This document shows positions 1 through 21,727 of a stretch of DNA of 26,088 bases, one piece after another. The notes beneath the pieces were generated by a model, which saw only the letters and a program-made list of their open reading frames with translations, made no database searches and was not told where the DNA came from. The number at the start of each line of letters is the position of its first letter. Position 1 is the stretch's first letter. Source of the stretch: a virus; the IMG/VR virus record IMGVR_UViG_3300046003_001992, positions 1-26,088 of that record. One strand, 5' to 3'. A program made the position numbers and the translations under genes.

Positions 1-3000
1 TTAGTACCTTGTGATATTGGACCATGTCCTACAACCTGATTTTTCTTAAAGCCAAGATATTGAGCAAGACGAGCTGCAGCAATAAGTTGAGCTTTATTAT
101 TTGTTTTACTACGTGCTGCTATATCTCGATCGTTTGCTCCAATTACCTCTACCCCTATACTGCTTCTGTTGTAACCTGGTCCTGCATGCCAACCGAGAGC
201 ACCGTCCGGTAAGAATCTATGAATACCTCCTTGTTGATCGATTACATACTGTGCGGGAAGACCTCTACTATAGAAAGTAGCGTAGGTGCCATCTGCAGTT
301 CCGCCACCTCCTGTGTGGTGTATTATAAAATTTGCTGCTGGACTTGTTATAGTACCGGCTCCGTAGTTTGTAATGTCAAATTTATTTTTACTAGTATCAT
401 CTATAATATCAGATTCGGTTAAAGGAGTTAATCCTGCTGCTTTTAAATTTATGTTTGAGGTACCTTTCTGGAAGACGTAGTTAGGGTACGCTCTCTTGAA
501 GGCAGTAGTATCAAAAGGTGTTGATGTTTGACGGGCACAAGAATAGTCTGATCCTGCTCCTGGATATAATCCCGGACATGTTTTTTGACCGTTAGTCGAT
601 ACGGTAGATCCTCTATACCCGCTATTACCAGTACTCCCCTGTACTTGAGCAATTTTACTTCCAGTAGCAGAGATATCATCTCCTATCTTTATCATTTGAC
701 CTCTAATTCTAGTTGTCCATTCGTTATTTTGTAAAGTTTGAGTAAGCCCTACTACTACAAATCCTACTTTAGGTTCAAGAGCTGTGCCTCTTAGTGAAGC
801 AGGTAATCGATTTGAAGGCACAGTAAAAGCATTTCCCATTAAAATACCGCTTATACCGTCTATATTAATACTTAAGTTAGCAGGTATAAAAGGAGCTGAT
901 TGAGTATCCTTATCTTCTGCTTTTTTAATTCTAAGACGGTTTAAATAATAGGATATAGAAGGATCTGTTTGTATTTTTGATACTACTCCGGTATTGTATA
1001 CTTGTTTTACATATGCATTAAATTTCTTAGCTGTATCTAAGTCACTATTTATTTTAGCTTTTTGCTGTGTTTGTACGTCTTTATTTGAATTACCGCTATC
1101 AGCGTTAGAGGTAGAATTTAGCTTTATTTTCATAAATGCATCATCATACCCAGTGTTGTAAGCACCAATAGCAGTAGCATCTTGTGCATTAGCAACTTGA
1201 TTTCCAATAGTAGCTTGAGCAGATATGGCTATCATAGCAGACATTGGAGTATTCATGTTTGTTCTAAACTCCATATCTCTAATTATACTGCCCTTACCGA
1301 ATATATTTAACTGAGAAGGATTAGCTGAAATGCCCGCTCTATAAATACAAGTAGGTTCTCCTTTGCTAGGTACTCGTTGATCATCTTTAATTACTACAGT
1401 GTTTGAATCATCTCTGTAAGCTACTCTAAATAAATTAAAACCTCCAGTAGATTTATTTATATCGTCTAATACCCTATCTAAAAAAGGTTTAAAATAAACT
1501 GCTCCTTCTGCATCTGCTTTTAAAAACTGGTCGGCTACTTCCAATAAGTATTGAGTGTTAAGTAGTATCTCCATAGTTTTACCTTGAAGCGAAGTATTAG
1601 CCTTAAAAGGAGGTAGTCTATTAGAAAAAACATTATCTCTCTCTGGATTAAAAAGTTCGTTCTGGAATTTAGTATCTTTTGCAATATCGGGAGGAAATAA
1701 ACTTTTATAATCTTCTAAAGTTGCTTGAAAAGGTATTAATACTTTGTAAGGATCTACTGTAAAATGCTTTGGTGAAGTTAAACAGAAGTTATACTCTGGA
1801 TGAAAGTCAATATAAAAGTAAGGTTTGATATCATTGCTATTAGTAGTATTACTTTGTTTATCTTTTGCTTCATATAACAAGCACATACTGTTCATAAAGG
1901 CAAGTAAATAACCAAACTTAATATACACTGGTTTTTGTCCATTACCAATAGAAGGTGTTTCTCCTTCAGAAAATTCATAATTAGCTTTATATCCTGTACA
2001 TAGAGCTTTAAAATCTACATCTAAAATATCACCGTATAAAGTTTTATCAGCCATTAAGTTGCTGTTAAAACCTTTAATAGCATAATCTAAAACATTAAAG
2101 CTTGCTGGACTGCTTTGTTTTGGAGTTGTAGTGAATATACCGTTAAGAACTCCGCTTTCAAAAAGAGTTCTAGTATTATCTTGAAAATCAATCAGGGTTA
2201 TCCCTGGAGAATTATAAGCTGTTGCTTGTCCTTGTGTCATATTGGCTATAAGCATAGCATGTAATGCAGAATTATACTGTTTAGCTTCTTGTGTTTGAGC
2301 TACAGTTGCTGTATTCTGTCCTCCTATAGTTTCTCCTGTCGGATTAACTGATGTTCCTACTGCCGGTATTGGAGCACCTGTAGCGGGAGGTAAGGAAAGT
2401 ACTTGGTCTATAAGACCACTATCATTGAATGTGACTGTTCCAGTAATGGTATCTCCTTTAACAACCAATCCTTTTATTGTACTGTGTATAATAAGACTCA
2501 CATCTTTATTTACTCCATTACCTATATTAGCAAACTGTAAATCATCTACTATAACTTCACCTACCTGGTAGAACCAGTTAGTTAACCCTTGTACATATTC
2601 TTCTCTTGTATGTCTTCCTTGAGGGTTTATAACAAATTGTATAAATTTTTGTTGTCCGTTTAGTACATAGGCAAGTTGTACATCGAATGGATTTATAATA
2701 ATAGTATCTTCTTTAAGTTTAGTAGAAAATAATCTTCTATTACCAAAAAGAAGAGACGTTACATTTGTAGTAGCTGTTCTTTCATTCTTTATGTTTAAAG
2801 ATACATCTAAAAGTCCTACTGTAGTAGAAGGAGTGTAATCTGTAAGAGGGTCTTTCCATATACCTCCGGTCTCAACACCAGTAAGAAAGTTAACGTTCAC
2901 TCTCGGATAAAGCGTCACATCAGAAGCACCTACCTTAACAGATATCTTGTCGTACAAGTAATCATTTCTAGATATTCGCGTGTCTTTAATAGATAAGTCG

Positions 3001-4334
3001 ATTAACGAATCTGCATATCCTTGTCTAGTTGGATCGGCTAATTCATCTATTAACTTCGTATTTAGTTTTACAGGTTGAGGTCTAGTAGCAACACCTGCAG
3101 CTATAAATTGCCAACCGTTTTTGTGGTTTAAAAATAAACCTGCACGTGGGGCGTAGTAAACACTGCCTACTGTTCCTCCAATATTAAGGTCGTTGTTAAG
3201 AGCAGTGTTAGTAGAGTTTACTTTATAAAAATAATCAGTTCCAAATGGATCGCTTTCACCAGAAGTTTGTACAGCTGCAAAAGATATAGCACCTAGCCAA
3301 GTAGCATCTGGATCTTTTCCGTTAACGGCTTTATAAATGGCTTTTATACCGTCTACGTTTTTTGCTTCTGGCGGCGGTACTGCTAGTAATTTTTGGCTTA
3401 CACGGGCTGCTAAGTCTTCTGCTTTTTTCTGGTTTTCTATAGCTATTCGCTGTCTTTCTCGAAGCTCTGCTTGTTGATCTTTAATTTTCTCCTTTAAAAC
3501 TTTTGGCATTGTAAAGGTCTGATTGATCCTTACCGTATCTATTACTGAACCTAATCCTACTAGCTTTATATTACAATCAAATCCTCCGTCTTGATTGAAA
3601 GAATAGTAAAAGTTAGTAACTGTTCCAAGCATTCCATCGTAGTTACCGTTAGATTGCTTATTCTTTTTAGTTATAGCTTGCTGTATGTCTTCCTTTCCGT
3701 TAAATTGAGTCTTATCAAAAATATCTAGAGGTGCATTGTCTGCACTGTTAGTTTGAAACTTTTCCTTATTATCAAAATAATTAACATGTCCCCATTCAAG
3801 TAGCATAGTGTATCCTAATCTAAAATATAAAGCCTCTACTATATTAAGTTGTACTATATTCCAAACTTTAAAATTAATAGATGCCTCTCTTAAAGAACCT
3901 AAAGTACCTTTGCTATCAATAGTTAAAGATTCAATACCAGGCATTGGTCTGTAGCCTTGCTGTAATCCTCCTAATCCATAAGCACCATCAGGACCTAGAC
4001 CGTACCTTAATTTTGTCTGTTTATCAACGAGTTGAGAAGTACCAGCTTGTAGTATCCAATTTTGAGCAAGACTTTCAGGGGTAGTATATCCCCCAGGTAC
4101 TGTTTCTCCATCAAATAAATTTGCATAGAATTGTTGGAATGTCTGATTACCTGCTGGGGCAACTCTGACAGAAGATACAAGTCTTGTCCAAGACATTTTA
4201 TTTGCAAGATACAAAACATCTTCGTTAGTTCTAGTCTCTAACGCGTTCTTTTTAGATCTTACATCTAATTGGTCTAAGATATACTCATCAAAAGGAGCTC
4301 CTATGACATTGGATAAAACCTTACCTGATAACAT
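1..4334 (-). CDS. Baseplate hub protein with C-terminal N-acetylmuramoyl-L-alanine amidase domain (3' end beyond window)
   Basis: The frame is open from ATG at 4334 to the left edge (1444 codons visible, no stop), so the protein is partial. The start overlaps the end of the upstream gp53-like gene by 14 nt. The first ~1200 residues look like tail-hub structure: a segment rich in beta strands with Leu-Glu-Trp-Gly-His near residue 180, a charged coiled coil at ~275-305, and a hub-like beta region at ~1150-1215. The last ~110 visible residues match the Amidase_2/PGRP family: FIIHHTGGG with His1339 and His1340, GWHAGPGYNRSSIGVEVIG around His1383, and VVGHGP with His1437. His1339 and His1437 fit the usual zinc positions; the third ligand would lie past the edge. 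I infer a tail-tip protein that organises the baseplate hub and cuts peptidoglycan during entry, analogous to the T4 gp27/gp5-lysozyme arrangement but with an amidase. The amidase call is firm; the hub call rests on position and size. Confidence 0.85.
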   Translation of the reverse strand, partial: MLSGKVLSNVIGAPFDEYILDQLDVRSKKNALETRTNEDVLYLANKMSWTRLVSSVRVAPAGNQTFQQFYANLFDGETVPGGYTTPESLAQNWILQAGTSQLVDKQTKLRYGLGPDGAYGLGGLQQGYRPMPGIESLTIDSKGTLGSLREASINFKVWNIVQLNIVEALYFRLGYTMLLEWGHVNYFDNKEKFQTNSADNAPLDIFDKTQFNGKEDIQQAITKKNKQSNGNYDGMLGTVTNFYYSFNQDGGFDCNIKLVGLGSVIDTVRINQTFTMPKVLKEKIKDQQAELRERQRIAIENQKKAEDLAARVSQKLLAVPPPEAKNVDGIKAIYKAVNGKDPDATWLGAISFAAVQTSGESDPFGTDYFYKVNSTNTALNNDLNIGGTVGSVYYAPRAGLFLNHKNGWQFIAAGVATRPQPVKLNTKLIDELADPTRQGYADSLIDLSIKDTRISRNDYLYDKISVKVGASDVTLYPRVNVNFLTGVETGGIWKDPLTDYTPSTTVGLLDVSLNIKNERTATTNVTSLLFGNRRLFSTKLKEDTIIINPFDVQLAYVLNGQQKFIQFVINPQGRHTREEYVQGLTNWFYQVGEVIVDDLQFANIGNGVNKDVSLIIHSTIKGLVVKGDTITGTVTFNDSGLIDQVLSLPPATGAPIPAVGTSVNPTGETIGGQNTATVAQTQEAKQYNSALHAMLIANMTQGQATAYNSPGITLIDFQDNTRTLFESGVLNGIFTTTPKQSSPASFNVLDYAIKGFNSNLMADKTLYGDILDVDFKALCTGYKANYEFSEGETPSIGNGQKPVYIKFGYLLAFMNSMCLLYEAKDKQSNTTNSNDIKPYFYIDFHPEYNFCLTSPKHFTVDPYKVLIPFQATLEDYKSLFPPDIAKDTKFQNELFNPERDNVFSNRLPPFKANTSLQGKTMEILLNTQYLLEVADQFLKADAEGAVYFKPFLDRVLDDINKSTGGFNLFRVAYRDDSNTVVIKDDQRVPSKGEPTCIYRAGISANPSQLNIFGKGSIIRDMEFRTNMNTPMSAMIAISAQATIGNQVANAQDATAIGAYNTGYDDAFMKIKLNSTSNADSGNSNKDVQTQQKAKINSDLDTAKKFNAYVKQVYNTGVVSKIQTDPSISYYLNRLRIKKAEDKDTQSAPFIPANLSINIDGISGILMGNAFTVPSNRLPASLRGTALEPKVGFVVVGLTQTLQNNEWTTRIRGQMIKIGDDISATGSKIAQVQGSTGNSGYRGSTVSTNGQKTCPGLYPGAGSDYSCARQTSTPFDTTAFKRAYPNYVFQKGTSNINLKAAGLTPLTESDIIDDTSKNKFDITNYGAGTITSPAANFIIHHTGGGGTADGTYATFYSRGLPAQYVIDQQGGIHRFLPDGALGWHAGPGYNRSSIGVEVIGANDRDIAARSKTNNKAQLIAAARLAQYLGFKKNQVVGHGPISQGT

Positions 4335-9059: not shown

Positions 9060-9067
9060 TATAAATA
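9060..9067 (-). promoter_or_regulatory. Candidate late promoter of tape measure/baseplate operon
   Basis: The coding strand reads TATTTATA, preceded by CTC. It lies between the HNH stop and the tape measure start, 27 nt before the preferred ATG at 9032. It is one of a set of matching sites upstream of minus-strand genes. Confidence 0.6.
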
Positions 9068-9074
9068 GAGCTCA

Positions 9075-9656
9075 TTAGCCTTTTGATCCTTTTTCCATGT
9101 TTTCTCTCCACCACATAGGCTGTAGGTTTGTAAAACGGTTTAACTTATAAACGTCTTGTTCTTCTTTTGCTAACGCTAATGGTACTATATGATCAACTAC
9201 CCATTTTCCTTCCCCAAACCCGTAGTTTTCCCAGGTCATTCCCGTAGTAAATTTAATTTCGATATGTTTTTGAAGTTGCTCAAAAGATTCTAATCCTAAA
9301 ATCTCTAATGTTGATTTGGATTTAGAAAATCCGCTGATATGTTGAGCTATTCTTGTACGTATATTAGCTTTTAATTTTTGTAAAGGAGTTTTTTTGTAGG
9401 TTTTAGCATAATCTTTGACATGTTCTAAGTTATTGAGCTTCCACTGTTTATAGTAATTTTGCTGTTCACTTCTCCATTTTCGTCCACGTTCTTTAATTTT
9501 TTCTTTATTCTTACGGTAGGATTTAAGCCTGTACCTGCTTACTACGACGTTAAAGCAGCTTTTACAGGTTCCCATTTTTCCGTCTTTATAGGACTTAGAA
9601 CTGTGAAAATTAGAGAAGTCTTTACTCACGTTACACTTAATACAAACTTTCTCCAT
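9075..9656 (-). CDS. HNH homing-type endonuclease with N-terminal zinc finger
   Basis: This 193-residue protein has an N-terminal zinc-binding knuckle (Cys5-x-x-Cys8 and Cys31-x-x-Cys34), a basic DNA-binding middle, and a C-terminal HNH nuclease motif: Asp155-His156 in WVVDHIVPL, Asn177 in TNLQP, and Asn186-x-x-Lys189. Such free-standing phage HNH enzymes cut DNA at a target in related genomes and spread by repair. It lies between the chaperone-like genes and the tape measure, a junction that is normally uninterrupted, which supports a mobile insertion. A terminator-like hairpin stands just upstream and it has its own promoter-like motif, so it may be expressed as a separate unit. The target site cannot be read from this sequence alone. 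Confidence 0.9.
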   Translation of the reverse strand: MEKVCIKCNVSKDFSNFHSSKSYKDGKMGTCKSCFNVVVSRYRLKSYRKNKEKIKERGRKWRSEQQNYYKQWKLNNLEHVKDYAKTYKKTPLQKLKANIRTRIAQHISGFSKSKSTLEILGLESFEQLQKHIEIKFTTGMTWENYGFGEGKWVVDHIVPLALAKEEQDVYKLNRFTNLQPMWWRENMEKGSKG

Positions 9657-9670
9657 GCTTAGTATTTACA

Positions 9671-9678
9671 TATAAATA
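9671..9678 (-). promoter_or_regulatory. Candidate late promoter of HNH gene
   Basis: The coding strand reads CTATTTATA, with 14 nt to the HNH start codon at 9656. It lies directly after a terminator-like hairpin at 9683-9717. Confidence 0.5.
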
Positions 9679-11219: not shown

Positions 11220-11705
11220 TTAGTAGTTCAAGATACAATAATCCATTCCTATACCTAATTCAATTGTGATTGCATCTTGGTTAGACCAGTCGTAAGAACC
11301 GAAGTTTGATGTCTTAATGAAAGCACCTTTAATAATCCACTCCGATACCACATCGCCTACTGGACCTAAGATTGATAAGTTCAAATCTTTCTTATAGAAG
11401 TCAGAATAACCGTCACGTCCTGTAACAGACTCATGTGATAAACGAATCCACTCCATTACTGCTTGTTGACCAGAAGGAGAAATTGGGTTATATAAGTTTA
11501 AAGTCATATCCTGCCATTCAGCCTTTCCTTTAATCTTACGGTAAACGTTAATATGGTCAATTTTAACTTCGTTTAAGTTTACGTTTGGTGCAGTTGCACT
11601 CTTGATCATGAAAGATGGAATACCATCAATATACATTATAAATCGGTTCTGAACGGTAGGTTCAAAAGCGGTAAACATTATTTCATTTGGATCTAATACT
11701 GGCAT
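11220..11705 (-). CDS. Tail tube protein, T4 gp19-like
   Basis: The 161-residue protein matches the T4 gp19 tail tube family in length and pattern: a start of VQNRFIMYIDGIPSFMIKSA at ~18-37, a VNLNEVKIDHINVYRKIKG block, WQDMTLNLYNPISPSG at ~64-79, and a C-terminal beta segment GSYDWSNQDAITIELGIGMD. Such proteins stack as hexamers to form the inner tube through which DNA and the tape measure pass. It follows the sheath gene with one small gene between, as usual for contractile tails. It has its own promoter-like motif 16 nt before the ATG and a strong terminator after the stop, consistent with very high separate expression. Confidence 0.93.
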   Translation of the reverse strand: MPVLDPNEIMFTAFEPTVQNRFIMYIDGIPSFMIKSATAPNVNLNEVKIDHINVYRKIKGKAEWQDMTLNLYNPISPSGQQAVMEWIRLSHESVTGRDGYSDFYKKDLNLSILGPVGDVVSEWIIKGAFIKTSNFGSYDWSNQDAITIELGIGMDYCILNY

Positions 11706-11721
11706 TTTATTCTCTATTTAG

Positions 11722-11729
11722 TATAAATA
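11722..11729 (-). promoter_or_regulatory. Candidate late promoter of tail tube gene
   Basis: The coding strand reads GATATTTATACT. The 8-base core TATTTATA ends 16 nt before the tube ATG at 11705. Confidence 0.6.
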
Positions 11730-12187: not shown

Positions 12188-13966
12188 TTACCCAAAGGTT
12201 ACGCCTGTTGGTAAGATGTTGAATGTTAATTGAATAAATTCCGCTGTTCTAGTTGGTTGCAAGTAAATTGCACCTACAAGTAAGTTTCTATCAATAACAT
12301 CTGGTGTGTTATTAGTTTCATCCATCACTACTCTGAATGCGTACAAACCTTGTCTTTGTTGTACGTAATCTAAGTAAGGATTAACTTGAGATAAGAATCT
12401 ATTTCTAGTTACAGCTGTATTTTGTTCAAATACTAATGTCTCAGCAATTTGACCAATGTAACTCTTCAAGGCAATTAATAAACGTCTTACATTTACGCGA
12501 TCTAAAGCAGAAGCTTGAGCTTGTAAAGTCTTTTGTCCGTATACTACTGTACCTTGACCTGGGAATACTGCAATTGGGTTAACTTTTGCACTGTATAAAG
12601 TATTTCTATCTGCTACTGTTAAGCGTCTTTCTGGTTGGATTACTGTTGGTAAACCTCCTCTGTTAAGACCTGCAGGTGCAAACCATTCAGCAGATACTTT
12701 ATCATTGTACTCGTAAACGGCAGGGATGATAGTAGAAGCAGGTACGAAATTTAACTTACCAGTTTCTATTGATCTTACTTGTACCCATGGCCAATATGTA
12801 GCACCGTATGAATTATCGTAAGTTTGAGCTGCTGCTGTTACACTTGCAACTGATTGGTTATAGGTAACCATATCTACTACTGCAATAGCATCACCTCTGT
12901 TTTGTACTGTACTTAATAGAGCACTAATTTGACTAGGTGAGTTTTGATAAGTAATACCTGGAGCATATAATGCATTGTAAGCATATGCATCTGTATTAGC
13001 AAGTAAGCTAATTGCGGTATCATAATCAGTAGAAAATAATCCTTGTACGTTATTAGTATTTGAAGTAGCTGCAACTGCTTTAATATTCTCGTACATGTTT
13101 AATGAAGCCGATGTACTAAAGTCTGCATTTAAGCAACCAAATAAAGCACCTGTAGCACTACCAAATGAACCATTTAATGAACCACTCCCTGCTGCTGGTA
13201 AAGAAGCTGTGTAGTAAGCATATGGTTGACCCTGTGGATTTAAGTAATTTGGAGTTGGAGCAAATACGTTAGAAACTCTTACGTAGTTTGATGCGTTAGG
13301 ATAAGATCCTGAAATTTGAATGTAATAAGCACCGCCATCACTTGTTACGTTTTGAGCTTGATCTCCTAATACGTAAGCAATATAGTTATTTTGATTTGGA
13401 TCCATTGAAAGATTAGACCAAGTTTCTACTACGCTCTTATTTGTAGTGTAGTCGTTACCTTGTCTAATTAATAAGGTGAATAAACCAGATCCTGTATCTA
13501 CATTAGAAATTTCCCATCTTACGTTGTTAGCTGAACCAGAAGGCAATAAACCTTTTGGAGCTTGTGATCCTGATGCAGATGCACTGTTATTCATTACATT
13601 ACCTACGCTTATAGTTTGAAGTTCAAACGAAGCAGAAACTGCTCCTAAAAGCGAAGCAACAGAAGCTGTTGCTGCAGTATAAGAACCACTAGCTACTCTT
13701 GTTACTAACAAAGAAGTACCTCCTTGTTGGAAGTAATTATAAGCTGCTTGAGAGGTCAAGTAATCATAAGATGTACCTCCAGAAATGAAGGTAGCACCGT
13801 ATTTTGCTTTATACTCAGAATATGTTGTAATTAGAGTTGGAATGTTTACTCTACCAAGTACGGTTGGGCCAACTAATGCTGCACCAACTGTAATAGGACC
13901 TGCTGTTATTTGAGATTGGTCATTCTCTGAAAGGAATACACCTGGGGAAATTAATGCTTCTGCCAT
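12188..13966 (-). CDS. Tail sheath protein, T4 gp18-like
   Basis: The 592-residue protein begins MAEALISPGVFLSENDQSQI, the typical opening of contractile sheath proteins, followed by GAALVGPTVLGRVNIPTLI. The variable Ser/Asn/Tyr-rich central part (~110-340) is where sheaths carry surface domains. The conserved C-terminal part has VSAEWFAPAGLNRGGLP near 415-435, an AVFPGQGTVVYGQKTL segment near 470-485, VNVRRLLIALKSYIGQ, and the closing TAEFIQLTFNILPTGVTFG. The sheath is the helical outer layer that shortens to drive the tube through the envelope. A promoter-like motif lies 20 nt before the ATG. Confidence 0.95.
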   Translation of the reverse strand: MAEALISPGVFLSENDQSQITAGPITVGAALVGPTVLGRVNIPTLITTYSEYKAKYGATFISGGTSYDYLTSQAAYNYFQQGGTSLLVTRVASGSYTAATASVASLLGAVSASFELQTISVGNVMNNSASASGSQAPKGLLPSGSANNVRWEISNVDTGSGLFTLLIRQGNDYTTNKSVVETWSNLSMDPNQNNYIAYVLGDQAQNVTSDGGAYYIQISGSYPNASNYVRVSNVFAPTPNYLNPQGQPYAYYTASLPAAGSGSLNGSFGSATGALFGCLNADFSTSASLNMYENIKAVAATSNTNNVQGLFSTDYDTAISLLANTDAYAYNALYAPGITYQNSPSQISALLSTVQNRGDAIAVVDMVTYNQSVASVTAAAQTYDNSYGATYWPWVQVRSIETGKLNFVPASTIIPAVYEYNDKVSAEWFAPAGLNRGGLPTVIQPERRLTVADRNTLYSAKVNPIAVFPGQGTVVYGQKTLQAQASALDRVNVRRLLIALKSYIGQIAETLVFEQNTAVTRNRFLSQVNPYLDYVQQRQGLYAFRVVMDETNNTPDVIDRNLLVGAIYLQPTRTAEFIQLTFNILPTGVTFG

Positions 13967-14022: not shown

Positions 14023-14268
14023 TTACAATGGCTTGATCTCGCCTGTTTCTGGGTTGATTGAACCATCGCCGTACTTCTTTCCAAAAGAAGATAAAAGCTC
14101 TCTTTCCTTGGTTGCGTTTTCTTTAATTACTACTTTTAAACCTTCTAATTCTAGATTTATTAAAGTTTTTCTGTAGTTAAGATCGCCTAAAATTGAGATT
14201 GTCTCATACACAGCTTTTCTAACGTCTTGAAGTTCTTTTAATTCTTCGGGAGTTACTGATTGACTCAT
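14023..14268 (-). CDS. Small helical protein of unknown function (81 aa)
   Basis: Nearly the whole protein is predicted coiled coil (TPEELKELQDVRKAVYETIS and a second charged helix), ending in a Gly/Pro-rich tail that reads INPETGEIKPL. No family is recognised. It starts 5 nt after the membrane-anchored 66-residue gene and so shares its transcript. It may be a small assembly factor or a partner of that protein. Confidence 0.65.
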   Translation of the reverse strand: MSQSVTPEELKELQDVRKAVYETISILGDLNYRKTLINLELEGLKVVIKENATKERELLSSFGKKYGDGSINPETGEIKPL

Positions 14269-14273
14269 AGTCT

Positions 14274-14474
14274 TTATTTTTTTGTTTTTGTACTTTTTGG
14301 TTTAGTAGCTTTAGGAGCAGCTTTTTCAGCTTTCTCTACAACTTCTTTTACCTCTTTAATAATTGGAGCAGCTGCTTTTTCTATCTTCTCAATAGCTTCA
14401 GGAGCTGATTTAGTGAATTTATACCCAGCATAAATTGTTGCTGCGATTATCACTACTACGATAAATGTTAACAT
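14274..14474 (-). CDS. Single-span membrane protein with Lys/Ala/Glu tail (66 aa)
   Basis: Residues 2-18 form one hydrophobic span (LTFIVVVIIAATIYAGY). The rest is a low-complexity Ala/Lys/Glu/Pro tail ending in a cluster of Lys and Thr, likely facing the cytoplasm. No known family or catalytic residue is visible. It begins a two-gene unit with the 81-residue helical protein and has a promoter-like motif 27 nt upstream. A lysis accessory or membrane-tether role is conceivable but unsupported. Confidence 0.65.
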   Translation of the reverse strand: MLTFIVVVIIAATIYAGYKFTKSAPEAIEKIEKAAAPIIKEVKEVVEKAEKAAPKATKPKSTKTKK

Positions 14475-14501: not shown

Positions 14502-14509
14502 TATAAATA
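14502..14509 (-). promoter_or_regulatory. Candidate late promoter of the 66/81-residue gene pair
   Basis: The coding strand reads GATATTTATATATAGC. The core ends 27 nt before the ATG at 14474 and lies just after the stop of the DUF2061 gene. Confidence 0.6.
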
Positions 14510-14529
14510 TCCAATAAAAGCGCAAAACG

Positions 14530-14745
14530 CTATTTTTTATCTTTCAATCCGTATTTAATCCACCTATACCAAATTCTTTCGTGAATGTAGTATTGAATAG
14601 GTTTATATACTAATTCTGCTATACCAAATGCAGCACCTACCTTGATTGAGCCGCTTATTAACCACATTAACAAGAATCCAATAAGAGTACTAATAATTCT
14701 ATAGCTAATTGTCTTGGCTATGTGTCTTCTTTTGTCTACTATCAT
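14530..14745 (-). CDS. DUF2061 family membrane protein
   Basis: The 71-residue protein fits the DUF2061 pattern: an N-terminal basic stretch, KTISYRIISTLIGFLLMWLI, a second hydrophobic segment at ~36-46 and the signature YYIHERIWYRWIKYG near the C-terminus. The family is a small two-span inner-membrane protein of unknown function that is often found beside sulfate or nucleotide-sugar genes in bacteria. Its ATG overlaps the stop of the nucleotidyltransferase gene by 4 nt (ATGA), so it belongs to the same cassette, as its last gene. Whether it takes part in sulfation is unknown. Confidence 0.8.
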   Translation of the reverse strand: MIVDKRRHIAKTISYRIISTLIGFLLMWLISGSIKVGAAFGIAELVYKPIQYYIHERIWYRWIKYGLKDKK

Positions 14746-15128
14746 AACTTTCCTTCTGCTTTCATCTGCTCACGGATTTTAGTGGCAGAAATATCGTGAA
14801 TCTCTTGAGGTGGAACGTGTTCTATAACATCGTACCCAATTCCTCTTCCAATATTCACCGATTCGATGTCAGGTATTACGATTATATGAACTTTTTGCTC
14901 ATTTATCAACTTTTGAAGAGATATTTTTAAGTTTTCAAAGACTTGCCATGCATTCCATGGATTTTTCTCATCAGGTTTTACATCTCTAATACATAGTAGT
15001 ACTTTCTTACCCTCGTTTAAGGCTTGATCAATTAGCCATTGATGTCCCTCATGCCAGGGTTGCCAGCGCCCGATGAACATTGCATAACCGTCACCACTAC
15101 CATTCCCCTTTGCTAGTATATTTTTCAT
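14742..15128 (-). CDS. HxGH-type nucleotidyltransferase (NMNAT/cytidylyltransferase-like)
   Basis: The 128-residue protein shows the two signatures of the HxGH nucleotidyltransferase superfamily: MFIGRWQPWHEGH at ~17-29 and DISATKIREQM at ~112-122. These enzymes move AMP or CMP from a nucleoside triphosphate to a phosphate-bearing acceptor. The GR-x-QP-x-H-x-GH form is closest to NadM-like adenylyltransferases. It lacks the QxRN sulfate-binding motif of ATP sulfurylase, so it should not simply be called that. The start at 15128 is preferred to ATG 15080, which would cut off the first beta strand. It overlaps the APS-kinase-like gene by 32 nt, which links the two enzymes closely. The acceptor is unknown. 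Confidence 0.82.
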   Translation of the reverse strand: MKNILAKGNGSGDGYAMFIGRWQPWHEGHQWLIDQALNEGKKVLLCIRDVKPDEKNPWNAWQVFENLKISLQKLINEQKVHIIVIPDIESVNIGRGIGYDVIEHVPPQEIHDISATKIREQMKAEGKL

Positions 15129-15549
15129 TTAGCCTGGTTTTAATTAAATTAATACATTCCTCTAATGATTTTTCAGTAGTATTTAACATTAAATCCACCT
15201 CATCTGCTTGGGGAATCTCAAAGTCTTCTACATGGTAAGATTCTCTACCTCTTTCTTCATTATATGTTAAATACACCCAGAAGACTTCGTTTGTTAAACT
15301 GTTTAAATAGTCTCTCGCCTCTTTGTACGGGTATACTAGAGATAATACTACTCTAATATCATCAATACTCTGATTTAAGTAGTGAGCTATATCGCTAGCT
15401 CTATTTAAATTCTTGATTCTTCCCTCTTTACTATAGTCTTTATTAGTAAAGATCGTTCTAAGCTTATCACCGTCTATATTATAGGCTTTTAACTCTTTTG
15501 CTAGAGTGGTTTTACCGCTACATGGCTGACCGAATAATACTACTATCAT
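15097..15549 (-). CDS. APS kinase-like P-loop kinase
   Basis: The 150-residue protein has a Walker A loop GQPCSGKTT at ~7-15, IDGDKLRTIF at ~25-34, and YSKEGRIKNLNRASDIAHYL at ~39-58, the order and spacing of adenylylsulfate kinase (CysC), which phosphorylates APS to PAPS with ATP. A YPYKEARDYL segment and a Tyr/Glu-Pro region near residue 113 also fit. It is shorter than typical CysC (about 200 residues), with a reduced lid region. Its neighbours are a sulfotransferase (4-nt overlap) and a nucleotidyltransferase (32-nt overlap), so PAPS supply is the simplest role. Alternatives are another nucleotide or sugar kinase, as for the CysC-like CDP-phosphoramidate kinase of Campylobacter or a NadR-like salvage pair. 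Confidence 0.82.
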   Translation of the reverse strand: MIVVLFGQPCSGKTTLAKELKAYNIDGDKLRTIFTNKDYSKEGRIKNLNRASDIAHYLNQSIDDIRVVLSLVYPYKEARDYLNSLTNEVFWVYLTYNEERGRESYHVEDFEIPQADEVDLMLNTTEKSLEECINLIKTRLNEKYTSKGEW

Positions 15550-16364
15550 TTTGTATATCTAAATTGTTGAAAAAACCATGGATAATTAGTCCAGATCCAA
15601 TCTGTTACATCCTTTCCTAAGATGTGCTTAGCTCTAGAAGGTACTGGTGCTAGTTTAGTTCTGATTTCATGATCACCAAACACACCGTACACTTCATCAT
15701 CCTCTTTTGTAACCTGTTGAATGTTATCAAAATCATGATCGTAATAAGGAACCTCTAAATACTCATATATTCTAGTCATTGTTGTTTCGGGGTAGAGACA
15801 TAAATCTTCGAACTTAACAAATAATACTTTAGAATCTATACCTAGTCTAAATAATTCCTGTAAACGTTCGATTGCAAGACCTATTGGTTGGGATTGTGCC
15901 CATATATCAACGCGTTTTGGTACTGTTGTACCTGCCATTTGAGCCCAATTCAATACGGGATTGGCTTTATCTGGATTTTTACGGTAATTCTTTTCCATTG
16001 AAGCAAAGATATCGCGTAAATCTCTCACCATTACTACTATCTTGGGGTTGGGATAGATTAAATTTAAGAAGTCATAGTGAATACCCCACCCTCTTGACTT
16101 ATCTATTACGTATTTCTTATCTGTAATAGCATTATAATAGCCATCCATTCCGTTTCTACAGAAGGATAAGAAGCCTGTTCTCATTAAATCAGCATCTTGA
16201 GCTTTAAACTCAGGAGAATCTGTGTAATTACCTCTTGCAGCAAATACAAGCTCTAAAACACCTGATGTAGGTGTGGCATAGAAGTCAGGATTTTGTGCAA
16301 TAATGTTTTGTAGCAATGTCGAACCGGCTCTTGGTAAAGAGCTTTGAAAAAATAACCTTTCCAT
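15546..16364 (-). CDS. PAPS-dependent sulfotransferase
   Basis: The 272-residue protein contains the 5'-phosphosulfate loop SLPRAGSTLLQNIIAQNP at ~8-25 and the 3'-phosphate motif MVRDLRDIFASMEKNYR at ~112-128, both hallmarks of the Sulfotransfer family, plus a VKFEDLCLYPETTM segment near 182-195. It should move a sulfuryl group from PAPS to a hydroxyl of a sugar, lipid or protein tyrosine; the acceptor cannot be read from sequence. No signal peptide or membrane span is seen, so it acts in the cytoplasm. It begins immediately after the stop of the glycosyltransferase gene and overlaps the kinase gene by 4 nt, which places sugar transfer, sulfation and donor supply in one operon. Confidence 0.9.
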   Translation of the reverse strand: MERLFFQSSLPRAGSTLLQNIIAQNPDFYATPTSGVLELVFAARGNYTDSPEFKAQDADLMRTGFLSFCRNGMDGYYNAITDKKYVIDKSRGWGIHYDFLNLIYPNPKIVVMVRDLRDIFASMEKNYRKNPDKANPVLNWAQMAGTTVPKRVDIWAQSQPIGLAIERLQELFRLGIDSKVLFVKFEDLCLYPETTMTRIYEYLEVPYYDHDFDNIQQVTKEDDEVYGVFGDHEIRTKLAPVPSRAKHILGKDVTDWIWTNYPWFFQQFRYTK

Positions 16365-17240
16365 TTAGTACTTTTTAAGTGAATCTATAATTTTATAGCT
16401 ATCGAATATCTCGCTTTCTGAAACATAAGGAAATTCTAACAAATCTCCACCTATATTAAAGGCTTGAAGATAGGCATTTCGTAATTCCGCTTTCTTTGTA
16501 AAAGGATTTGCAAGAAGATTATCATGCATATCATATCCAAATACTTCGGGCTTATTAGTAATCCAACAAACTGTAGAAGGGAGTCCTAATCCGGCAGCTA
16601 CGTGCTGAGCAAAGCTGTCCATAAACAATCTCTTAGTACTCAAAGAAACTAATACTACTAAGCCTCTAAAAGATTCAGTAACGGGAATAGTATTTTGAAA
16701 GCTAATTTGATCTTCTCTTTTAATATGAGCAATATTATAAACATCTTTAAATATTTCAATAACATCTACTACGTTTTGATAAGGAATATCTCTTGCCCAA
16801 GAGTATTTTAAATTTGCATCTCCTCCTCCATTGGTTTGAATAACCATTAAAGGACGGTCTGTTGTAAATCGACTACCAAAGAATGTAGCCTCTCTTTCTG
16901 TCAAGTAGACCTTAGGTAATTCTCCATCATATTGAAGATCAAACATCTCACACCATGTTTTAATAAGGTGTTCATTTTGATAAAGATGTTCTGTTTGGAG
17001 ATAAGGATCATGAGCAAAGATCTTAAAGTCTTTCTCATTTTTAATGTACTCTTCGTAGAAGTAACTCATGCCACCGAAGTTATAAGATCGGTGGACATGT
17101 GGGTTACCTAAGAATACGTCTGCGTAGCCTGAAACTACTATAAGATTGGATTCGGGATATTTCTTTTTGATGGCCTCGCAAACGGCTGTAGCCATTACAC
17201 ACTTGCCAATACCCCCATTTATTTGGAATATTATGTTCAT
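16365..17240 (-). CDS. Glycosyltransferase, GT9/heptosyltransferase-like (GT-B fold)
   Basis: The 291-residue protein opens with NIIFQINGGIGKCVMATAV followed by a Lys-rich helix and IVVSGYADVFLGNPHVHR, the Rossmann start of heptosyltransferase-like GT-B enzymes. The second half has MDSFAQHVAAGLGLPSTVCW at ~208-227, like the donor-binding DS-x-x-x-H-x-A-x-x-x-G motif of GT9. It is a little shorter than LPS heptosyltransferases (~320-350 residues). It probably attaches a sugar to phage or host glycan in the cytoplasm; donor and acceptor are unknown. It is the first gene of the five-gene cassette and ends exactly where the sulfotransferase begins. No promoter motif precedes it, so read-through from the 113-residue gene is likely. 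Confidence 0.83.
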   Translation of the reverse strand: MNIIFQINGGIGKCVMATAVCEAIKKKYPESNLIVVSGYADVFLGNPHVHRSYNFGGMSYFYEEYIKNEKDFKIFAHDPYLQTEHLYQNEHLIKTWCEMFDLQYDGELPKVYLTEREATFFGSRFTTDRPLMVIQTNGGGDANLKYSWARDIPYQNVVDVIEIFKDVYNIAHIKREDQISFQNTIPVTESFRGLVVLVSLSTKRLFMDSFAQHVAAGLGLPSTVCWITNKPEVFGYDMHDNLLANPFTKKAELRNAYLQAFNIGGDLLEFPYVSESEIFDSYKIIDSLKKY

Positions 17241-17280: not shown

Positions 17281-17622
17281 TTAGAAAGTGTTAATCTCTG
17301 AGTAAATAATTTCGGTTACAGTTGTACCTTGTGCTACTGCAATTTCACCTAACACTACAGCGTCGTCAGTTCCCCAAGACGTAATAGCAGAACCAGATAA
17401 GAATTGGTTACCATTAAACAATGTTTGGAAGCTTACTGCACTATCACTTTCATCGAAGGTCAAGTTACCATAAGACACTTGAAAATTTACTGCATTAGTA
17501 CCTAATACGTAAGGACGTGCTACTGCACAGATGTAAGAACCAGTCACAGTTGTTGTGTTGAATGGATCTGCTTGTGTGATCACAGATGCTACTGGATCAA
17601 TCTTACCGAAAATCATGCTCAT
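17281..17622 (-). CDS. Small beta-rich protein, possible virion component (113 aa)
   Basis: No known family is recognised. The sequence is rich in Thr, Val, Ser and aromatic residues with few charges (for example VARPYVLGTNAVNFQVSYG and a SAITSWGTDDAVVLGEIAV stretch), consistent with a beta-sandwich structural protein. It lacks a signal peptide. It lies directly after the giant repeat fibre and before the glycosyltransferase, with its own promoter motif 19 nt upstream. It may be a fibre-associated protein or a chaperone. A second in-frame ATG two codons later (17616) is also possible. Confidence 0.7.
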   Translation of the reverse strand: MSMIFGKIDPVASVITQADPFNTTTVTGSYICAVARPYVLGTNAVNFQVSYGNLTFDESDSAVSFQTLFNGNQFLSGSAITSWGTDDAVVLGEIAVAQGTTVTEIIYSEINTF

Positions 17623-17641: not shown

Positions 17642-17649
17642 TATAAATA
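17642..17649 (-). promoter_or_regulatory. Candidate late promoter of 113-residue gene and the sulfation cassette
   Basis: The coding strand reads CTATTTATAACAG, 19 nt before the ATG at 17622. No other motif copy occurs before 14502, so this site probably drives the whole cassette from 17622 to 14530. Confidence 0.6.
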
Positions 17650-17657
17650 GTTTGTTT

Positions 17658-20600
17658 TTATATTAGATTGTTAGCTTTGAGTATTCCTTCTACTATCTCT
17701 AACCTATCTTTTAATTCCTTGATGGCATTAATATAAGAAGCATAAATGGCATCTTTCTCAAATTGTAATATTGGTTCGCCTTCTATCTCACCTCCTACTT
17801 TTCCTTCTGCATCGACTTTATCAATAGGATGATGAGTAATGATTTCGGGCACGACTTGGCAAACCTGTTGTGCTATGAAACCATATCTTCTAAAGTTACT
17901 ACAATCTCCATTAAATACGAAAGAGACAGGATTTAATTGTGTTAGTTTATCTAAGCTATATGTAAGTGGGCAGATTGAATGTTTCATTCTGCAATCAGAA
18001 GTACCGCCCGATACATTACAAATGTTATTTGCGTATAGGTACGATGCAGCCGATGTAGCAATTCCACATCCTACTATAAATGAGCAAGCATGAGTAATGG
18101 TGTTATTTCTTCCTCCTAATATAGCACTAAAATCACCTCCCGTACATACATGGTTTGAAAAACCTCCCAGTATAGATGCATATTGGACTTCGACACTATT
18201 AGATTCACCTCCTGCTAAAGTACCTCTTGTTCCAGAAACTAAGTTATTGTATCCACCACCAAGAAAGGTCCAAGCACCAGTTGCTGTGTTTGTATTTCCT
18301 CCTGCTACTACCGAACAGGCTCCTGAAGCAATATTAATAGTACCGCCACCTACGAAGCTAAATGCTCCTGATCCTGTATTAAAAGATCCCCCTACTATTG
18401 CTGAACAATCTCCTGAGGCTAGGTTATTACAGCCACCTCCTACAATGGATGCGCCAGCAGTAGCTCTGTTTCCTCTACCAGAAAAAACTCCAGATCTTGC
18501 ATTGCTTGCTATATTGTTCCATCCACCACCTACTGTAGCCATATAACCACTAGCTGTGTTTTGATATCCACCTAATACTGCTGCCCATCCAATTCCGCAA
18601 GCTGTATTACTATCTCCTCCTGCTATTACTGCTCTACCGTATACTCCGCTTATGGAGTTTTGTATACCCCCTCCTATCATTGAGCCATTACTCGATATTA
18701 AGTTAAGATTACCTCCACCAATAATAGCGCATTGAGCACTACCACTAATTTGATTTTGAAACCCTCCTGCAATTGTTGAATATTGTCCTGAAGTAGTATT
18801 AACACCTGCGTTGTAAATGGAGTTTAATCTACCACCACCTATTGAAGATCCGTATGAGTAACCGCATATTAAATTAACATTTCCTCCTGCTATGGTTGTT
18901 GTATCTTGACAAGCTCTATTACAAACACCACCTCCCACTGTTGTATAAGCTCCTGCAGCTGCGTTTAATTGACCACCGCCTATTGTTGCACAGTTTCCTG
19001 ATGCTACGTTACTCAAACCGCCTCCGATAAAACTATTACCTCCACTTGCTGTACTAGAATCTCCTCCAGCTATAGTTGCATAAGTACCACTCGCAGTATT
19101 AAATCCACCCCCAACTACAGTAGCTCTTGCTGCTAAAGCACGGTTTCTAACACCTCCCACTGCTACTGCATGAGCTCCTGAACCAGTCATTTGAGTACCT
19201 CCTCCTACAAAAGAATACAATCCACTTGCTGTGTTTAACGAGCCGCCTACTATTGTTGAACATGCTACTGAAGCTATATTACAGTTTCCACCTCCAACAA
19301 AAGCAGCTGCTGCTTGAGCAGCGTTTAATTTACCGCCTACAACTACAGCACAGTTACCTGATACTCCATTAACACTACCTCCACCTGCAAATGAATAAGT
19401 ACCACTAGCTGAGCTAGCATATCCTCCTACTACTGTTGCGTAAGTATTTGAAGCTGTGTTTTGCTGTCCACCACCTACTATTGAATTAGTTCCAGAAGCA
19501 ATGTTTGAACTTCCTCCTGCTATTACTGCTCTATTACCTGAAGCGGCATTTGAGTTACCTCCGCCTACAGAACTCCATGTTCCTGATCCTGTATTAGCTT
19601 GGCCTCCGGCTACTGTTGCAGCACAAGCAGTTGCACAGTTTTTAAGACCAGCACCTATAAATGCATGTCTACCACTACTAACATTTAATTCACCGCCAAC
19701 TACTGTTGATATAATTCCTGTTGCATAGTTTACTTGGCCTGCACCTACGAAAGAATCTATTCCTGTGGCTTGATTTGAAGTACCCCCTACTACTGTAGCA
19801 CGAATATTAGATGCTATGTTAGTGTCACCTCCACCTATAAATGAGCCTGTACCTGCTAAACAAATACAGTTACTTGTACCTCCTACTATTGCTGAGCAAA
19901 ATGCGCGAGCCGTGTTAGAAGCACCACCACCTATTACCGATGAATCTCCTGATGCTAAGTTGAAGCTGCCTCCACCTACAATAGCATAACTATTATTTAC
20001 TGTGTTACCAATACCACCTATTGTTGTTGCGTAAGCAGCTGAGGCTATATTACAACATCCGCCACCTACGAAAGAACAAGCTCCTGATGCTAGATTATTA
20101 ATACCACCTCCTACAAAACTAAATGCTCCTGATCCTGTGTTAAAAGTTCCTCCTACTACTACTGCGCAGTTTCCTGAAGCTAAGTTGTTTATTCCTCCTA
20201 ATATTGCAGATTGATTTGCAGATGCTATGTTTGTTTGACCGCCACCTATTGTAGCTCTATATCCTGAAGCAGTGTTTGAAATACCACCAGCAACAACAGA
20301 ACTATTACCAGATGCTGTATTACCAATGCCAGTTGCTACACCTGAATAGTTACCTGATGCTGTATTAGAAGTACCACCTCCTACAGTTGTAAAGTTAGCA
20401 TTTGCTGTGTTAGAAGAACCTCCTCCAATATGTGAACAGTTTCCTGATGCATTATTTGATGCACCTCCTGCTACTGAAGAATAGTTTCCTGTTGCAGAAG
20501 CACCTGAACCAACTGCTAAGTTATTTGATACTCTTACAAGTCCACTTGCACTTACAAATAGAGCATTTGAATAGAAGTATGAAGAGCTGTCGTCTGTATA

Positions 20601-21701
20601 GACTTGGGAAGCAGTGATGTGATCACCACCTTGGCCTTTCATTACATAGTTAGCTAAAGTGCCTTGCTCATTACCTAATGATCCGGTATTTCTCGGACCA
20701 TTCATTAGCATAGCCGAGTTATAGGTACTACCTGATGGGTTAGAATATATCCAATGGTTCTTTTCTGAATCCCAAAATATCGACCCAGTCAATCCAGTTG
20801 ATCCACTATCAAAAACAGATAAACCTCCAAATCTTATAGCTGGTGTATCTGTGTTGACAGTAATTACGTTTGATCCAATATTTACTTGACTTGAAGTAAT
20901 GTATTGGATACTAGAAGTTCCATAAACTGTTATATTATTAAAATAAGCAGTACCACTCACAAATGAATCTTTTGCTACTCTAAAACCTCCATCTGTATAT
21001 AAAGAAGCTGTACTTGTAAAGCTAATAGCATTGCTTGCTTGATTAATAAATTGCGGACCTGTAAAAGTATTTGAACCAGTTGTTGCGTATTGATCTTCAA
21101 TTGTAGTAACTCTACCTGCAATTGATCCAGAAGTTAAGGAGAAAGAAGAAGAAACTACTGCAAAGGATGCAGAAGCATTTGTTAAAGTAATAATATTTGC
21201 TTCATCGGTAGTTAGTCTTGTAGAAAGACTAGCAGATTGAGCTGCAAATGAACCTGAAGCAGATACTAAGGTACTTGAAGTTGCTTCTAGATTCGACGTT
21301 CTAACACTTAAAGAACCTGATGCTGAAGCATACGACCCAGAAGTAATAGTATAAGAGCTACTTAAGGCTGCTTGACTATTTTGAACTGATTGAGAAAGTA
21401 CTAAAATAGAAGCTGATACTGAAGCATCTGTTGCAAAGGTAGCATCCAAAGAAGAACTAAATTGCTCTAAATTAGTAATTCTACCGGCTGCAGATCCTGA
21501 AAAAGTATTAAAAGAAGAAGTAGATACAAAAGAGGCAGAACTCAAGTTGTTTAATAGGGCTGCATTGTCTGCATAGGAAGCAGAATCAATAGAGCCGGTA
21601 ATGGTACCGTTTATAGTACCAAAGACGGAAAGACTCCCGCTCAATACTGTACTCCCTGAAACAACTAAAGATCCTGAAATGGTCGGCTGATATAAATTCA
21701 T
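17658..21701 (-). CDS. Giant repeat tail fibre/adhesin with C-terminal S74 chaperone domain
   Basis: The 1347-residue protein has four parts. Residues 1-~195 are Ser/Ala/Gly-rich with heptad-like Leu spacing, probably a trimeric stalk. Residues ~195-370 are a module shared with the neighbouring fibre. Residues 408-1221 consist of about 53 copies of a 15-residue repeat, consensus [SA]xVxGGxxNxASGxx, similar to YadA-like head repeats and predicted to form a trimeric beta-roll. Residues 1235-1347 are an S74 (endosialidase-type) intramolecular chaperone, with the Ser1235-Asp and Lys1240 dyad of the self-cleaving site. Such domains guide trimer folding and are then cut off. The repeats contain many Cys, often at the end of a unit. 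The fibre most likely binds the host surface. A promoter motif lies 18 nt before the ATG. Confidence 0.88.
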   Translation of the reverse strand: MNLYQPTISGSLVVSGSTVLSGSLSVFGTINGTITGSIDSASYADNAALLNNLSSASFVSTSSFNTFSGSAAGRITNLEQFSSSLDATFATDASVSASILVLSQSVQNSQAALSSSYTITSGSYASASGSLSVRTSNLEATSSTLVSASGSFAAQSASLSTRLTTDEANIITLTNASASFAVVSSSFSLTSGSIAGRVTTIEDQYATTGSNTFTGPQFINQASNAISFTSTASLYTDGGFRVAKDSFVSGTAYFNNITVYGTSSIQYITSSQVNIGSNVITVNTDTPAIRFGGLSVFDSGSTGLTGSIFWDSEKNHWIYSNPSGSTYNSAMLMNGPRNTGSLGNEQGTLANYVMKGQGGDHITASQVYTDDSSSYFYSNALFVSASGLVRVSNNLAVGSGASATGNYSSVAGGASNNASGNCSHIGGGSSNTANANFTTVGGGTSNTASGNYSGVATGIGNTASGNSSVVAGGISNTASGYRATIGGGQTNIASANQSAILGGINNLASGNCAVVVGGTFNTGSGAFSFVGGGINNLASGACSFVGGGCCNIASAAYATTIGGIGNTVNNSYAIVGGGSFNLASGDSSVIGGGASNTARAFCSAIVGGTSNCICLAGTGSFIGGGDTNIASNIRATVVGGTSNQATGIDSFVGAGQVNYATGIISTVVGGELNVSSGRHAFIGAGLKNCATACAATVAGGQANTGSGTWSSVGGGNSNAASGNRAVIAGGSSNIASGTNSIVGGGQQNTASNTYATVVGGYASSASGTYSFAGGGSVNGVSGNCAVVVGGKLNAAQAAAAFVGGGNCNIASVACSTIVGGSLNTASGLYSFVGGGTQMTGSGAHAVAVGGVRNRALAARATVVGGGFNTASGTYATIAGGDSSTASGGNSFIGGGLSNVASGNCATIGGGQLNAAAGAYTTVGGGVCNRACQDTTTIAGGNVNLICGYSYGSSIGGGRLNSIYNAGVNTTSGQYSTIAGGFQNQISGSAQCAIIGGGNLNLISSNGSMIGGGIQNSISGVYGRAVIAGGDSNTACGIGWAAVLGGYQNTASGYMATVGGGWNNIASNARSGVFSGRGNRATAGASIVGGGCNNLASGDCSAIVGGSFNTGSGAFSFVGGGTINIASGACSVVAGGNTNTATGAWTFLGGGYNNLVSGTRGTLAGGESNSVEVQYASILGGFSNHVCTGGDFSAILGGRNNTITHACSFIVGCGIATSAASYLYANNICNVSGGTSDCRMKHSICPLTYSLDKLTQLNPVSFVFNGDCSNFRRYGFIAQQVCQVVPEIITHHPIDKVDAEGKVGGEIEGEPILQFEKDAIYASYINAIKELKDRLEIVEGILKANNLI
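18039..20480 (-). repeat. 53-unit, 45-nt coding repeat array (15-aa GGxxNxASG units)
   Basis: This is the in-frame array in the giant fibre, about 53 units of 45 nt, a few of them 48-69 nt (near units 14, 36-38, 40 and 51). Units vary at most non-Gly/Asn/Ala/Ser positions, so the DNA is diverged but some blocks are nearly duplicated. Confidence 0.85.
20601..21122 (-). repeat. Shared fibre module, copy 1
   Basis: This 522-nt coding segment of the giant fibre aligns without net gaps to 25560-26081 of the other fibre gene. I count 18 differences in 174 aligned residues (about 90% identity), with strong DNA similarity. Confidence 0.85.
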
Positions 21702-21719: not shown

Positions 21720-21727
21720 TATAAATA
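21720..21727 (-). promoter_or_regulatory. Candidate late promoter of giant repeat fibre
   Basis: The coding strand reads GATATTTATATCTAG, 18 nt before the ATG at 21701. Confidence 0.6.

Follow-up and report, generated by a model that had tools for sequence, protein, structure and literature searches.

We identify a five-gene cassette in a 26,088-nucleotide stretch of viral DNA (IMG/VR record IMGVR_UViG_3300046003_001992, positions 1 to 26,088; hereafter the window) that most likely encodes a self-contained phage sulfation module. The cassette occupies positions 17240–14530 of the minus strand, amid the tail genes of a contractile-tailed phage whose presumed host is a freshwater member of the Bacteroidota. 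In the pathway that we propose, a 128-aa nucleotidyltransferase (NTase) would act as a compact ATP sulfurylase that converts ATP and sulfate to adenosine 5′-phosphosulfate (APS) and pyrophosphate (PPi), and a CysC-like kinase, judged by its family and motifs, would phosphorylate APS to 3′-phosphoadenosine 5′-phosphosulfate (PAPS). A sulfotransferase with both PAPS-binding motifs would then take the sulfuryl group of PAPS and transfer it to an acceptor, with a DUF2061 protein as a membrane-linked part of the module. Hypothetically, the acceptor would be a glycan built or extended by a GT9-fold glycosyltransferase, and the likeliest carrier of this glycan would be the adjacent fibre or some other protein of the virion; to this last step we give an even chance. 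A dedicated sulfation module had been proposed in a sequence-only reading of the window; the comparative evidence upholds its central idea of a private PAPS supply beside virion genes, but that reading missed the NTase as the probable APS-forming step, the most novel part of the cassette.

Organization and conservation of the cassette

Five tightly overlapping open reading frames (ORFs) follow one another along the minus strand: a GT9-fold glycosyltransferase (16365–17240, 291 aa), a predicted PAPS-dependent sulfotransferase (15546–16364, 272 aa), a shortened kinase of the APS kinase family (15097–15549, 150 aa), a miniature NadM-related NTase that is a candidate ATP sulfurylase (14742–15128, 128 aa), and a small DUF2061 membrane protein (14530–14745, 71 aa; Pfam 2e-16, 60.5 versus 23.1 bits). 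The glycosyltransferase and sulfotransferase genes abut with 0 nt between them, while the sulfotransferase and kinase genes overlap by 4 nt, the kinase and NTase genes by 32 nt, and the NTase and DUF2061 genes by 4 nt. The packing reported from the sequence alone, with 0-nt gaps or overlaps of 4–32 nt, was thus recovered at every ORF and junction.

For comparison, IMG/VR loci with the sulfotransferase (80), the NTase (80, one shared) and the kinase-NTase fusion (13) were fetched, giving 172 analysed loci that are non-independent samples with many close relatives. The exact order glycosyltransferase, sulfotransferase, kinase, NTase, DUF2061 occurs in 43 of them, and these genes are also often found in a different order. 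The gene order is not a product of chance, because it is kept in relatives whose sulfotransferases have diverged to 46–50% identity. A kinase either adjoins the NTase or forms one protein with it in 122 of the 135 viral loci with enough upstream sequence, lies within 3.5 kb in 12 more, and is absent in one. Around the 81 well-flanked viral NTase genes, a sulfotransferase is found within 5 kb in 61, a glycosyltransferase within 6 kb in 52 and a DUF2061 gene within 5 kb in 69. The genes stay together across relatives, contrary to the scattered arrangement that would have told against the earlier reading. Isolated phages gave no match to the cassette at the DNA level, nor to the kinase alone by tblastn.

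Predicted activities of the sulfotransferase, kinase and glycosyltransferase

The sulfotransferase matches Pfam Sulfotransfer_3 at 4.4e-19 (70 bits against a cut-off of 27) and Sulfotransfer_1 at 2e-11. It carries SLPRAGSTLLQN as the 5′-phosphosulfate-binding (5′-PSB) motif and MVRDLRDIFASMEKN as the 3′-phosphate-binding (3′-PB) motif, consistent with the earlier assignment of both PAPS-binding motifs to this protein. Residues P11, R12, G14, S15 and T16 (PRAGST) together with R114 and S122 (RDxxxxxxS) are invariant among 38 relatives. By profile search against the PDB the nearest solved structures are protein-tyrosine sulfotransferases (3e-10), and the best NCBIfam match is the NoeE family of sugar sulfotransferases (1.6e-8).

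The kinase matches Pfam APS_kinase (PF01583) at 2.6e-9 (37.7 versus a cut-off of 21.1 bits), as do 29 of 29 relatives, and its family profile finds APS kinases first in the PDB at 3e-18, with nicotinamide riboside (NR) kinase reaching only 0.01. Invariant columns and alignment with E. coli CysC place the P-loop, DGDxxR, RxxN and PYxxxR substrate-site residues in the protein, so that its description as CysC-like holds. The canonical CysC lid, K-ARAGE--FTGID, is shortened to RGRE-HV-DFE-P, and the score of 36.2 bits falls below the cut-off of 138.7 bits for the NCBIfam apsK equivalog (TIGR00455). In viral loci L035–L037 and L227–L235 a canonical CysC stands in place of this divergent kinase. In L035–L037, where the exchange identifies the probable role of the kinase, the sulfotransferase gene is followed by a gene for a 349-aa protein that unites a complete canonical CysC with the NTase (256 bits for this type of fusion against the same TIGR00455 cut-off) and then by DUF2061. 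In L227–L235, CysC and the NTase are neighbours and are accompanied by DUF2061, with glycosyltransferases flanking the pair in L227 and a Sulfotransfer_2 gene near it in L234. In the NTase tree, which is built on few columns and leaves many forks unresolved, the L035–L037 group joins CysC/NTase pairs of Flavobacteriales (97% support in the Shimodaira–Hasegawa-like approximate likelihood ratio test, SH-aLRT), apart from the group of the window, so the pair entered phages more than once.

No Pfam glycosyltransferase profile, Glyco_transf_9 included, matches the first gene product of the cassette, and Glyco_transf_9 is matched weakly by 5 of its 37 relatives. The GT9-like label is borne out at the level of fold: in a Foldseek search with its AlphaFold2 model (mean predicted local distance difference test, pLDDT, 93.4), GT9 structures are the best matches (3tov, E 2.4e-12, TMq 0.62; WaaF 1psw, E 7.9e-11). 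The donor-site motif D208-S209…H213 is invariant across the 37 relatives. G12-K13 is likewise invariant, at the position where heptosyltransferases carry a G-D motif (Asp13 of WaaC), the Asp of which is catalytic. The invariant G-K in place of G-D may point to an altered catalysis or donor.

A compact nucleotidyltransferase as candidate ATP sulfurylase

The NTase is a member of the HxGH superfamily, as first proposed, with the motifs GRWQPWHEGH (GRWQPxHxGH type), PDIESVNIGRGIGY and ISATKIR; the catalytic HxGH and the ISxTxxR motif are conserved. Pfam assigns it to CTP_transf_like at 1.7e-5, and the same family is found in 26 of 26 relatives. The protein is short, with GRGxGY standing where NadM has its second half. 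Its scores against the NCBIfam equivalogs for nicotinamide mononucleotide (NMN) adenylyltransferases are 36–38 bits, compared with cut-offs of 127–409, and the alignments span the N-terminal half only. It stays below the cut-off of the Sat profile PF01747 (14.2 versus 24.3 bits), and at 128 aa it is not a full-length multidomain Sat, the Foldseek match to 1v47 covering 76 columns at E 0.028. Its matches are to HxGH-type families only and not to the PP-loop CysD or the GTPase CysN. By these profile comparisons the NTase is outside both known sulfurylase families, Sat and CysDN. From its linkage to APS kinase and the replacement pattern described below, its probable function is nevertheless that of an ATP sulfurylase, converting sulfate to APS.

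A scan of 84,980 species genomes yielded 60 cellular loci with the NTase. In 57 of the 60 it is joined to APS kinase, as one fusion protein in 31 and as an adjacent or almost adjacent gene in 26 (the exceptions are L089, L090 and L138), and both fusion orders, CysC-NTase and NTase-CysC, occur. When 50 NTase-bearing genomes were searched whole, APS kinase was found in 48, Sat in 5 and a strong CysD match in 9, with Sat or CysD in 12 altogether; 36 of the 48 genomes with APS kinase have neither Sat nor a clear CysD. Some of the cellular pairs are also linked to sulfation genes. In 16 of the 50 genomes the APS kinase/NTase pair has a sulfotransferase at a distance of about 6.5 kb or less (one of them below the Pfam cut-off), and in a patescibacterium (L125) the sulfotransferase gene directly precedes an NTase-CysC fusion. 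In haloarchaeal plasmids (L264–L268), five of five examined have the fixed order sulfotransferase, CysC-NTase fusion, YqcI (a YqcI/YcgG gene), the fusion being annotated only as cysC. In three loci (L120, L128 and L131) the pair adjoins a CysQ-like phosphatase, an enzyme type that removes the by-product 3′-phosphoadenosine 5′-phosphate (PAP). Near the cellular pairs there is no gene like cysD, cysN, cysH, cysI or cysJ, except for a weak cysN-like match 5 kb from the Haloarcula pair. DUF2061 was also considered as a gene of cys operons, and the three bacterial loci tested gave no support.

Several observations weigh against the sulfurylase assignment or the sulfation module as a whole. The closest relatives of the NTase by sequence are NMN adenylyltransferases (2qjo, 3e-9; NadM), and Foldseek with its AlphaFold2 model lists NadM first and Sat further down; that model is of moderate quality (pLDDT 77) and worst at the GRGxGY loop. 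The Pfam ATP-sulfurylase profile is matched by 12 of 26 NTase relatives, weakly, with 1.5e-4 at best. Among the viral contigs with kinase and NTase, Sulfotransfer_3 was not found in L185–L187, L215 and L227–L235. Sulfotransfer_2 was considered as a general substitute there, and it is clear only in L234 and L235 and weak in three others. In Stenotrophomonas and Xanthomonas phages the NTase is fused to a divergent kinase, and no sulfotransferase is present in the neighbourhood. Finally, many of the cellular genomes are incomplete, which makes gene absences soft.

Because this incompleteness weakens the figure of 36 genomes, an independent control was made with 60 genomes of the order Flavobacteriales. 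A full-length CysC is present in 25 of these. All 23 that have no NTase possess CysD, mostly directly after CysC, whereas CysD is missing from the two in which the NTase directly follows CysC. These two were already known carriers of the NTase, so the weight of the control lies in the 23 of 23 and in the exact exchange of position.

Putative transcription unit and setting among the tail genes

The octamer TATTTATA occurs seven times on the sense strand of the window, and six of the seven copies lie at most 45 nt upstream of a gene start (minus strand, 9060–9067, 9671–9678, 11722–11729, 14502–14509, 17642–17649 and 21720–21727). The genes preceded by it are those of the fibre, a 113-aa protein, the tube and s66 and two others, the first small gene after the cassette being among them. 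The same placement is seen in L004, L006 and L044, and TATTTATA is likely a late-promoter element of the phage. Unlike TATTTATA, the T4-type motif TATAAATA shows no enrichment upstream of genes on the coding strand, and a sigma-70 promoter scan remained at chance level. The copy at 17642–17649 is located 19 nt before the 113-aa gene (17281–17622, minus strand), no exact copy occurs within the cassette, and a pattern match directly 3′ of DUF2061 (14519–14531, minus strand) gives a terminator-like hairpin and T-rich tract, AGCGTTTTGCGCT TTTATTGG. This motif placement suggests a single putative transcription unit (17622 to 14530) that would be served by the promoter type of the structural genes, in keeping with the earlier supposition that the cassette uses the structural late promoter.

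The 113-aa protein, for which family searches gave no family, would be the first product of this unit; its gene is kept between those of the fibre and the glycosyltransferase in relatives and is duplicated in L006, L007 and L010 (6371–7066 in L006). Upstream lie giant fibre genes, including one for a 1347-aa tail-fibre-like protein (17658–21701, minus strand), a possible acceptor. Its composition is 32% Ser/Thr/Asn and 17% Gly, and NxASGxxSxVGGG-type repeats and a chaperone-like C-terminus can be read from its sequence. Downstream are the sheath gene (12188–13966), the tube gene (11220–11705) and baseplate genes. The cassette thus lies between fibre and sheath as had been stated, but not immediately so: the 113-aa gene intervenes at one edge, and two small genes (14023–14474) separate DUF2061 from the sheath gene at the other.

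Two further genes of the window were recorded. One, at 9075–9656 amid the tail genes, is Endonuclease VII/HNH-like (phrog_1035, 6.6e-24) and possibly encodes a homing endonuclease. The other, at 3–4334, encodes a very large protein of at least 1444 aa that ends in an amidase/endolysin-like domain and is possibly a tail-associated lysin.

Discussion

The acceptor is the least constrained part of the proposed pathway. A virion acceptor is favoured because the unit is adjacent to the fibre gene and has the same promoter-like motif as the structural genes. That the module works as proposed and modifies the host surface instead (capsule, lipopolysaccharide (LPS) or S-layer glycan, for example in superinfection exclusion) is a weaker but live possibility. 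The GT9 fold is typical of LPS-core heptosyltransferases and genes for sugar metabolism and sulfotransferases are found close to the cellular relatives; late expression is compatible with a host target, yet a position amid structural genes fits the virion better. It is improbable that the sulfotransferase acts directly on tyrosines of a virion protein, with the glycosyltransferase independent of it. The protein-tyrosine sulfotransferases that are its nearest solved structures are remote, NoeE acts on sugars, and a glycosyltransferase is close by in most of the well-flanked loci.

Other explanations concern the supply of PAPS. The host sulfurylase could provide APS for the phage kinase while the NTase is employed otherwise, as a regulator or in adenylylating another small acid. 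CysDN is frequent in free-living bacteria, and ATP sulfurylase activity of the NTase is a prediction. We regard this alternative as slightly less probable still than a tyrosine target: the conserved HxGH and ISxTxxR motifs speak against a domain that is only regulatory, no second sulfurylase is seen in most genomes with the NTase, and among Flavobacteriales CysD is absent where the NTase is present. The kinase and NTase might also be a split NadR-like pair for salvage of nicotinamide adenine dinucleotide (NAD), made of an NR kinase and an NMN adenylyltransferase that merely adjoin the sulfotransferase and glycosyltransferase. The solved relatives of the NTase would agree with this, phages do carry such genes (for example NadM plus Nampt), and a related fusion adjoins a NADAR-domain gene in phage Bhz60. 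As a principal explanation, NAD salvage is rejected on the strength of the kinase profile, by the full canonical CysC that replaces the kinase in related phages and many cells, and because the NTase takes the place of CysD, and the NTase also aligns to NMN adenylyltransferases in its first half alone and far below their cut-offs; we consider it very unlikely. Least credible of all is that the PAPS feeds assimilatory sulfate reduction, and so the making of cysteine, in the infected host, as phage cysC and cysH are usually interpreted in the literature (PMC10914622, PMC9529941), given the tight linkage to sulfotransferases and glycosyltransferases in phages and the lack of cysH-, cysI- or cysJ-like genes near the cellular pairs (whole phage contigs were not searched for CysH).

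The self-contained sulfation module resembles several known systems and differs from each. PAPS synthases such as human PAPSS1 and the Aquifex SAT/APS kinase, which combine Sat and APS kinase in one fusion protein, likewise join an HxGH-type NTase to APS kinase in the service of sulfotransferases; the cassette-type NTase has about 112–128 aa compared with roughly 400 for Sat, is NadM-like without the rest of Sat, and is found in both fusion orders. CysDN/CysC loci with glycosyltransferase and sulfation genes, such as the cysD-cysN-permease-cysC-glycosyltransferase array of plasmid L269, follow the same neighbourhood logic with a sulfurylase gene after CysC, but here one small NTase would replace both the PP-loop CysD and the GTPase CysN. 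With the NMN adenylyltransferases NadM and NadR the NTase shares the core fold and the GRxQPxHxGH and ISxTxxR motifs, whereas its second half is shortened with GRGxGY and its partner is an APS kinase, not a ribosylnicotinamide kinase. The kinase-NTase fusions of phrog_10255 (phages Bhz60, DLP_6 and AhaSv) have an NTase with GRDVGY and, mostly, ISATxxR; they differ in their divergent kinase domain and in that no sulfotransferase is nearby.

Kinase-NTase genes also occur in other surroundings. The divergent fusions of Stenotrophomonas and Xanthomonas phages, with GRDVGY, are those of L081 (5587–6327), L082 (5593–6324) and L083 (4578–5324); in L081 a NADAR gene lies on one side and a DNA methyltransferase gene on the other. 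On the large phage contigs L186 (7538–9226) and L215 (6720–9253), the kinase and NTase genes precede one for a DNA methylase, which Pfam assigns to N6_N4_Mtase in L186. L215 also contains an ORF that resembles sulfotransferases (KTATSL, RNPYTRYVS) but matches nothing in Pfam.

Phage-borne APS kinase genes are common in large freshwater phages, where cysC has been reported as a strongly transcribed assimilatory auxiliary gene (PMC10914622, PMC9529941, PMC8190135). In the cassette it is tied to a sulfotransferase, a glycosyltransferase and a putative sulfurylase, and phage cysC here probably serves sulfation rather than assimilation. Phage sulfotransferases of the same Sulfotransfer_3 superfamily, with 26–30% identity, are found in Synechococcus phages S-SKS1 and S-SRM01 and in OM43 phages (PMC10580990), with no PAPS-supply genes described; their role was called unclear in 2023 (PMC10580990). 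Full-text searches, with most subscription journals outside their reach, yielded no description of the NTase or the NTase/kinase pair, no phage PAPS-sulfotransferase cassette, and no paper that connects phage cysC with phage sulfotransferases.

More tentatively, the NTase may represent a third class of ATP sulfurylase besides Sat and CysDN, found in bacteria, archaea and large aquatic phages and used for sulfation rather than assimilation, with phages sulfating their own fibre glycans; we would not yet call this the probable outcome. If true, it would supply the missing sulfate activator for the many organisms in which APS kinase occurs without a recognised ATP sulfurylase (among them Patescibacteria, haloarchaea and marine Flavobacteriales), and the compact one-polypeptide PAPS synthases of about 260–350 aa could be useful tools for making PAPS. 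For this phage lineage, cysC would stand for the sulfation of surface molecules and not for cysteine synthesis, phage sulfotransferases would gain a concrete role, and virions would bear a phage-made sulfate coat.

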